Shown: piece after piece, positions 17,101 through 20,100 of the stretch
How positions within the stretch are numbered: position 1 is the stretch's first letter
How the letters are laid out: each line of letters opens with the position of its first letter
Assembly (NCBI GenBank): GCA_008933995.1
Contig: WARS01000046.1
Coordinates: 6,496,026-6,560,025, forward strand
Source: Datnioides undecimradiatus
Lineage: Eukaryota; Chordata; Actinopteri; Lobotiformes; Datnioididae
Length of the DNA: 64,000 nucleotides
Direction: 5' to 3'
Position numbers and translations under genes: made by a program
The notes under the pieces: generated by a model
Database searches by the model: none
Told to the model about the DNA's origin: nothing
Seen by the model: only the letters and a program-made list of their open reading frames with translations

Positions 17101-20100
17101 TGCATTGATGAAATGTTCCCTTCTCTCTGTGTGTGTTTCTTAAGATTTTTAAGATTTCATTGAAAACTGGTTGACTCTGTTCTTTTTTTTTTAAATCTAT
17201 CACCCCGCCCTCTTTCTCACTCCTGGCAGTCCCGTGAACAGTCAGACGATGAGCAATCAGAGGACTCTGTGAAGTTCAAGCGGCTTCACAAACTGGTTAA
17301 CTCCACACGCCGGGTCAGGAAAAAACTCATCAAGGTGGAGGAGGGCAAGAAACATGGCTCTGAAGGTTTGTAACACCTTAGATCCTTTCTGATTATTTTA
17401 CAGTTTAACATAATCTAAATATGTCATCTTTTGTTTAGATAATCCCATTATTGTTTCATCGACCCTAGTGGTATTGTATCTAGATGTGTTCTGCTCGCAT
17501 ATGACTCGTACTATATGTTGAAAATCTGTTCCTAATAATAAACTTGGATGTTTGCCTTTTCTAAAATAAAATCATTGTTTATAGTAACATTCGCATATCC
17601 AACTGAGACTAATTGGAAATTAATGACTCATTTGAAAAAGTAGGATTTTTTTGTTTTTGGGTTTTTTGTTTTTTACATTCCCCTCTGTCATGGGTTTTGC
17701 CCAATACTCAGACATAAAGAATGTGTTTTTAAATTTTTGCTTGCTAGCTGTGGTTTGGAAAACCACAGATTGGTCATGGGACTCTGCTGAATCTGATGTC
17801 TAAATCCTCCTGAATAACTAATGTTTCTGTCGTTGTCTTTAGATTTTCTGAATCTTGAGGCACCTCCTACATGTGAGGACAACACAGCTCTGTACACAGG
17901 GGTCCTAAAGAAGCCCCCTTTGCCCCAAGAGATCTCCTTGCCCTCCCTCACCCAGGATCAACTCTCTCTGGATGGTGACACAGACAGTCTGACCAACTCC
18001 CCATCCTCCAGCAGCCTGGACACCTGGTCTGGACACAAACTGGTCAAAACCTTCAGTAAGTCTTCCAGTACCCACGGTCTTATCCGGCCCCCCAGGAGAA
18101 CCCCAGTTGGCTCCGGGGGCCTGGGAGGCTCCATCTCCGGCGTGGGAGGTAGTGGCTCTTCCTTCTCAGAGCTGGATGGCTGTGGATTGGATGACGAAGG
18201 AAAGCTGTCACGCTCCACAACTGACAGCGAGATGCGGAAGGCCCTGAGCTCCATCTCCCATGGGGTAAGTAACAACGAAGCTCTCTACGCCTACTATGGC
18301 CTCACCAAACCTCGCCCCAAACCCCATGCCCAGTCCCGCCTCCTGATATCCCTGGATGACGGTCCACAAGGCAGCCCCAAACACCAACCTGCTAACCGGC
18401 ACCATGGCAGCTGGACACACAGGAAACCTGACCCCAACTATGCTTACTCAACTAAGCATCTACTGTATCAACGCTCGCGCAATGCCAAGACCCCTGTCTC
18501 CCCTCTGTCTGTCACCCCCTCCTCCCCCGCCCGCTGTGATGTAGCCAAATCAAAAGGTTTTGGAAGTGGGGGAGGAGGCTGGGTGTTCCCCTCTCGCAGG
18601 CTGCGTGGTCGAACAGCAGTCAGTGAGCTGAACATCACCTATGTGGTAGAACGGAGCCTGTACGGTCACCTCAACTGGGCCCAGCTGGTCCGCCCAGTAA
18701 CCCTCAGCCGCGCTGAGCGCCGCTGTCTATTGGAAGAGGACCGCGAGGCGGACAGGAAGTGGGCGGCCAGTGTGGACCGCTGCACCAAGCGGGTGCTCTT
18801 GCGCATCCAGCAGAAGTCTGTGAGTTTAGACCGTGAGGTTTAAATCGACCGCCTCGTGTCAGCAGGACTCGGTGCTTCAAAGTTGCAGAATAGCTCAGAG
18901 GTGAAGGGTGACAGTTGAAGGGTGAAGGTGCAGCAAACGTACACAAACGACACACATGTCAGGTCAAATTACCTCAACCTATCTGTTAAATACTGTCTGT
19001 GTAAGAAAGCCACATCAAAGTATTGCAGCTCATGTAGAGAAAAAAAGGGCTGGTGTATCTATCACAGACATAACTCCCCTTAGAGGAATGTCATCTTCTA
19101 TGACCTTTAAGTGAATGCCTCTGGCTTTAAACCTTTTTTATTTCAGCTGAATATGAAATGATTATGGAAAGTGCAGTGGCCCACTTGGGAGGTTAAGTTA
19201 CAGCAGCGGTTTTATAAGTGCCTTTTTTATAAATGTCAGACCCCCTAAAGGACACGCACACTCACACAGTCGCACCGATCCCTGTGGGCAAAAGAGATGT
19301 TGTACAAGCTTGAAGCTGCTCATCCTGCTGCTGCACAGGATGTGGCGTCAGAGACAGTTAAGTCAAGTTAAAGCGACTGAATGTCAGCTTTCATACTGAT
19401 CTTGTTAGGCTCAGTGTAGTGACAGAAAAACAGGTCAATTACAACTGCAAATACATTTCACGTCAACCAGCATGACGCCAGCATCTGGTTGTGTCAGTAA
19501 CTTCCCCACATGTATCCAGATAGCCCGTGTGTATCGGCAGACGTAGTGACACATGCTGTAGGTGGTGATATAGTGGAGCTATCCTGCAGCTTTGAGGGTA
19601 CCTGAATCCTATCGTGTTCTAGTGAAGTCACTGGAGGTCGTTCTCATCCAAAAACTCTTTGACTCCACTTTTTCTGTTGTTGATTTTCGTGTTCTTTTTT
19701 GGCCCGTGCCTCTATGGTTGCAGATGTGATTTTTTTTTTTATCCTTCTTTGGTTGTTTTTCTTTCCTATAATTATCTTCGAGAGACATTTTTTTCTGGGT
19801 GCATGTCCATTCCATCGAACATTGCCATGACATTCAGAGTTCTTTTTGGACGTCTCTTCAAACATGTTTGTTCTCCAAACTGTGCTTTTCTTGGGAAGTT
19901 GTGATGTGGACTGCAGCTGTTGGACGTCTAATATAAAAACTATTTTCTTAATGTGCAGTAACCCTTCACACATGGTGGATCTTCACTCGGGGTTTGTGGG
20001 AGTTGAGTCAAGTAGTTTAGAAGTAATGGCTTCTGTAGCAAAGGAGATATACCATCAAGTGTCCCACATGAACTGAGAGTGTTTATTTGACAGATGCATA

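Follow-up and report, generated by a model that had tools for sequence, protein, structure and literature searches.

A candidate alternative 5' splice site in sash1a of Datnioides undecimradiatus, predicted to add 185 residues at the edge of the SPIDER region

SLy adaptors and the two sash1 genes

The SLy adaptor family comprises SASH1, SASH3, and SAMSN1, and a review describes a C-terminal second SAM domain as the feature separating SASH1 from SASH3 and SAMSN1 and links SASH1 to pigmentation (PMC10252437). Human SASH1 contains the motif RTCSFGGF at residue 404 (PMC10706912, Table 5), one of four SASH1 motifs that the same paper reports to bind ARC4 of TNKS2. The fish gene described here is similar to these adaptors in that it has SPIDER and SAM matches and an RTCSFGGF identical to that of human SASH1, but it differs in a candidate insert of 185 residues at the SPIDER edge, where the Pfam SPIDER model aligns without an insert.

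The arrangement at this locus resembles the alternative 5' splice site class, in which two phase-compatible donors share one acceptor, the frame is open between them, and the proximal donor is the stronger; the resemblance here is one of genome sequence only. At 555 bases, the segment seems long for an alternative 5' splice site extension. Optional segments are a familiar form of variation, and the event would be of an ordinary kind in an interesting place. If true, it would be a paralog-specific alteration of a signaling scaffold at the edge of a tankyrase-binding region, and gene models based on the human protein could overlook a coding segment of considerable length. No description of the long isoform was found in openly licensed SASH1 literature, assessed largely by title and the opening of the abstract; existing fish gene annotation may already include it. 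The nearest SASH1 items in that literature are an effect of the last exon in human and a row, lacking exon detail, in a human placenta table.

The window analyzed is a 64,000-nucleotide part of contig C307 in a 581-Mb assembly and carries a SASH1 gene on the + strand, designated sash1a; the second SASH1 gene of the same genome, designated sash1b, is at G000:C466:12056001-12071000. The allocation of the two names by teleost naming is an assumption, and the teleost genome duplication would account for the two copies. Translated comparison of the genes gives the 14 common exons used here, spanning ∼5050 to ∼28070 of the window. Thirteen of them are recovered with a low-complexity filter, the exon at 12440 appears only without it, and weak extra matches at 5227 and 34258 were left out of the set.

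Pfam matches to SPIDER (PF12485) and then SAM follow one another in the exon order of sash1a. The exon that ends SPIDER, which we take from the usual SASH1 domain order to hold the start of SH3 as well, scores 24.9 bits with PF12485, slightly below the 25-bit cut-off, and the exon with the rest of SH3, scored alone, gives 13.6 bits with SH3_2 against a cut-off of 21.8. The late open frame that serves as a coding control is presumably also part of SASH1. Further SPIDER matches in the genome are at G000:C463:93799-94994, G000:C482:3739106-3742152, and G000:C478:4454572-4454661, the last of which is weak (E 0.25); these are probably the sash3 and samsn1 genes. Several family matches also occur in equal-score pairs on two contigs (C215/C218 and C473/C474, for example), a pattern suggesting that some haplotypes were left uncollapsed during assembly. 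Unlike these paired matches, the sash1a insert is found in one place only.

Two donors and a shared acceptor

The + strand frame from 17818 to 18843 has 341 open codons and passes through two donors that are both in phase 0 and 555 bases, or 185 codons, apart. Past the distal donor it continues for seven sense codons (VSLDREV) to the TAA, so that the frame and phases are as the original prediction read them, with 185 codons open from 18265 to TCT/GTGAGT at 18820. The acceptor at 20859, also in phase 0, is compatible with both donors, and its exon begins with RTCSFGGF, which heads the list of tankyrase-binding motifs of human SASH1. The position of that motif at residue 404 of the human protein identifies this as the exon named in the original prediction. 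The coordinates of these and other sash1a features are given in Table 1.

Table 1. Features of sash1a in the window (scores are from simple splice-site matrices)
Feature	Position	Strand	Remarks
sash1a exon, short form	17843..18264	+	In-frame end ...SSISHG; acceptor score 9.68
Proximal donor GTAAGT (GGG/GTAAGT)	18265..18270	+	Phase 0; strong, score 9.54
Candidate exon extension, 185 codons	18265..18819	+	Single copy in the genome search; without Pfam, NCBIfam, or PDB relative
Candidate distal donor GTGAGT (TCT/GTGAGT)	18820..18825	+	Phase 0; weak, score 4.91
TAA closing the frame when neither donor is used	18841..18843	+	Open-frame reading
Next sash1a exon	20859..20933	+	Phase 0; acceptor score 8.83; N-terminal edge of SPIDER
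sash1a exon, SPIDER core	21106..21249	+	PF12485, 48 bits over 21109-21249
sash1a exon, end of SPIDER (ends approximate)	23833..24003	+	86% identity with sash1b
sash1a exon, rest of SH3 (start base approximate)	24378..24590	+	80% identity with sash1b
sash1a exon, SAM domain (ends approximate)	27304..27459	+	SAM_1, 32 bits (cut-off 23)
Late sash1a coding exon, coding control (ends approximate)	31067..32131	+	Open frame

The distal donor had been described as a second good one, a description that its score does not bear out: with a T at -1 it reaches 4.91 against 9.54 for the donor at 18265, on a simple matrix whose weights, like those for acceptors, are approximate. A score of 4.91 is reached by 5.7% of the 4109 + strand GTs scored, although within the stretch 18250-18900 this GT ranks first after 18265. 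A search near exon ends with the pattern GTRNG located donors in 9 of 15 sash1a exons, 18265 included, and the distal donor would outrank one of these nine (22855, an approximate position).

The homologous exon of sash1b (48% identity to the short-form exon, E 8.4e-20) ends at a donor HHG/GTGAGT (score 9.11) in the same place as 18265, and the following acceptor, AG/AGAGCTTGT, is likewise in phase 0, giving the junction product HG-RACSFGGF. Since sash1b is arranged in this way, the short junction is common to both copies. The paralogs differ in that the intron is 617 bases in sash1b and 2594 in sash1a, and in that the insert is absent from sash1b, where the frame shuts after 23 codons.

Because the frame is open through two phase-0 donors served by one phase-0 acceptor, with no stop between, we favor with moderate confidence a reading of 18265-18819 as an alternatively used 3' extension of the sash1a exon, made through an alternative 5' splice site. 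Splicing would usually run from the strong donor at 18265 to 20859, yielding canonical Sash1, and in some cells suppression of U1 use of 18265, or enhancement of 18820, would give a presumably minor transcript joining 18819 to 20859, in frame and with 185 additional residues. A separate cassette exon or a terminal exon is disfavored, since no in-phase acceptor within the insert scores above 4.6 and the intron contains neither AATAAA nor ATTAAA as a signal for intronic poly(A); the strongest internal acceptor-like site, 18600 (9.12), is in phase 2 and thus permits no in-frame join to the preceding exon.

A coding stretch could also be used differently, either with the long form as the main product and 18265 as a minor donor or with the intron retained as far as the TAA at 18841, which would cut Sash1 before SPIDER. 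The unbroken frame to 18841 is compatible with this, as is a codon score that has no sharp boundary at 18819. However, the proximal donor is strong and shares its place with the sash1b donor, the short junction matches the SPIDER model from position 1, and the lack of both poly(A) signals in the intron argues against retention, so that we regard such uses as improbable. With the intron retained, many bases would separate the stop from the junctions downstream of it, and such transcripts are a usual target of nonsense-mediated decay.

Coding character of the extension

At equal base use, the chance of 185 open codons is (61/64)^185, or ∼1 in 7,000, in agreement with the earlier estimate of ∼1 in 10,000. 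Among 20,000 dinucleotide shuffles of the insert, frame 0 stays open in 31 (∼1 in 650), and 100 have at least one of the three frames open; the insert itself carries 4 to 8 stops in every frame except frame 0. A stronger control than the shuffle estimate is an empirical one, composed of the 93 donor-like sites that score at least 8 within the initial 63 kb of either strand, each taken in three phases, for 279 tests. Runs of at least 100 codons follow 18265 (192 codons) and a site in the late coding exon (355 codons), the next longest being 96. For the eight other located sash1a donors, the frame stays open into the intron for 2 to 36 codons.

The three-base periodicity of the insert, a training-free measure, is 3.11 (known coding sequence, 1.6 to 3.0), a value reached by none of 269 intron windows and by 1 of 507 windows from 33 to 63 kb. 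Codon log-odds trained on sash1a and sash1b are 0.297 in frame 0, with 0.09 and 0.04 for the remaining frames of that strand; the frame-0 value lies inside the range of held-out sash1 exons (0.18 to 0.89 for the 17 listed) and, under the same sash1-trained model, is reached by 0 of 328 intron windows and 3 of 3000 shuffles. An independent model built from unrelated GPCR and kinase loci (56 of 60, with 4 dropped for stops) ranks frame 0 of the insert best of six, at 0.035 beside 0.032 for the neighboring exon, and gives the true frame the top rank among six for 18 of 21 sash1 exons. Synonymous scores from 30 GPCR loci are 0.224 for the insert and 0.079 and 0.093 for its other frames, with 0.175 for the neighboring exon and 0.098 for the late exon, and a full codon model from 15 GPCR loci is matched by 19 of 3000 shuffles. 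Most of the coding statistics favor real coding sequence, and 18265-18819 is probably, though not certainly, protein-coding.

The synonymous-only and frame-contrast results are weak. In the synonymous-only model (15 GPCR loci), 102 of 3000 shuffles reach the insert (z 1.93), and in the frame-contrast model, where the second half of the insert scores 0.17 in frame, the insert is reached by 10 of 2000 shuffles and, on the best of six frames, by 47 of 269 intron windows. The 56-locus score is equaled by 9 of 269 intron windows, and that model gives parts of the insert no frame-0 preference, as at 18376-18486, where frame 1 is higher. The modest synonymous-only test and the intron windows that reach the insert score in these two models would suit a noncoding, GC- and CpG-richer intronic element such as an enhancer, or chance, with the open frame a by-product of composition; the CpG observed/expected ratio of the insert (0.58) also exceeds that of the neighboring exon (0.27) and the rest of the intron (0.40). 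The rarity of open shuffles, the periodicity that no intron window attains, the stops in all five other frames, and an open run that, in 279 tests, has a counterpart of at least 100 codons only in a known coding exon argue against this reading, and we consider it unlikely.

In the original prediction, the close of the open frame at the second donor was taken as a sign of a real exon, and this stands in part. GC content falls from 59.5% in the insert to 44.2% in the following 581 bases, and 18820 is the best remaining GT; against this, GC content changes most clearly at 18875 rather than at 18819, and the cumulative codon score climbs to 18951, across the stops at 18841 and 18916. The coding boundary is thus not sharp, and with both positions lying beyond 18820 and a donor that is weak, though the best local GT, a boundary at 18820 is plausible rather than demonstrated. 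Past the TAA, the same frame is coding-like for ∼36 codons (18844-18951), with a further stop at 18916, which may be noise.

Relatives of the insert and the SPIDER edge

The insert is basic, with 32 K/R and 14 D/E residues (a difference of +18), and contains five S/T-P sites and eight tyrosines; its last third is helix-prone on simple scales with approximate weights for helix and disorder. A simple pattern finds no tankyrase-type motif inside it. Comparison with Pfam and NCBIfam gives no match, consistent with the earlier statement that the insert has no known domain, and comparison with PDB sequences gives no credible one; two antibody chains at E ∼3 were rejected. None of 10 pattern matches in IMG/VR and none of 49 in GTDB contigs was confirmed, and as NCBIfam, IMG/VR, and GTDB hardly contain fish proteins, their negatives say little about other fish. 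Protein and DNA searches of the insert's own genome return nothing credible except the insert itself, the best other match (E 0.05, with 4 stops) being rejected. In these searches the insert is single copy and so not a dispersed repeat, and a repeat origin was rejected.

No trace of the insert is found in sash1b, the best values being E 0.19 in the intron stretch and E 1.5 in 25 kb. This absence constrains how old the insert can be or how well it has been retained, and presence in the paralog is not required for an isoform. Together with the weak distal donor, it would also suit a relict, in which the extension was once coding or has newly opened and is no longer spliced in, but 185 stop-free codons, with codon scores comparable to those of exons in use, make this highly unlikely.

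Partial spliced sash1a scores 106.2 bits with PF12485 in the short form and 103.3 in the long form (curated cut-off, 25), and the model alignment starts at position 1 and position 3, respectively; the insert would thus fall at the N-terminal boundary of SPIDER, and its proposed place immediately ahead of the SLY-type region is right. In the favored reading, that of an alternative 5' splice site, the long protein would retain SPIDER, SH3, and SAM and would gain a basic segment containing S/T-P sites and tyrosines, with a helix-prone last third, directly ahead of SPIDER and RTCSFGGF. That motif would be left intact and what precedes it altered, and the segment may change the access of tankyrase or other partners at the SPIDER edge. 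A bolder proposal, that an orphan 185-residue segment in one of two Sash1 paralogs is switched on and off by donor choice and so gates, through splicing, the binding of tankyrase to RTCSFGGF, is quite doubtful.

Among the four human motifs given in PMC10706912, sash1a keeps three, RTCSFGGF, RSSLSGQS, and RGPFCGRA, encoded in 20859-20933, 22722-22853, and 23833-24003. The fourth, RSLHVGSN, reads RSLHVVNT in sash1a and is without the glycine, and sash1b has HGPFCGRA in place of RGPFCGRA.
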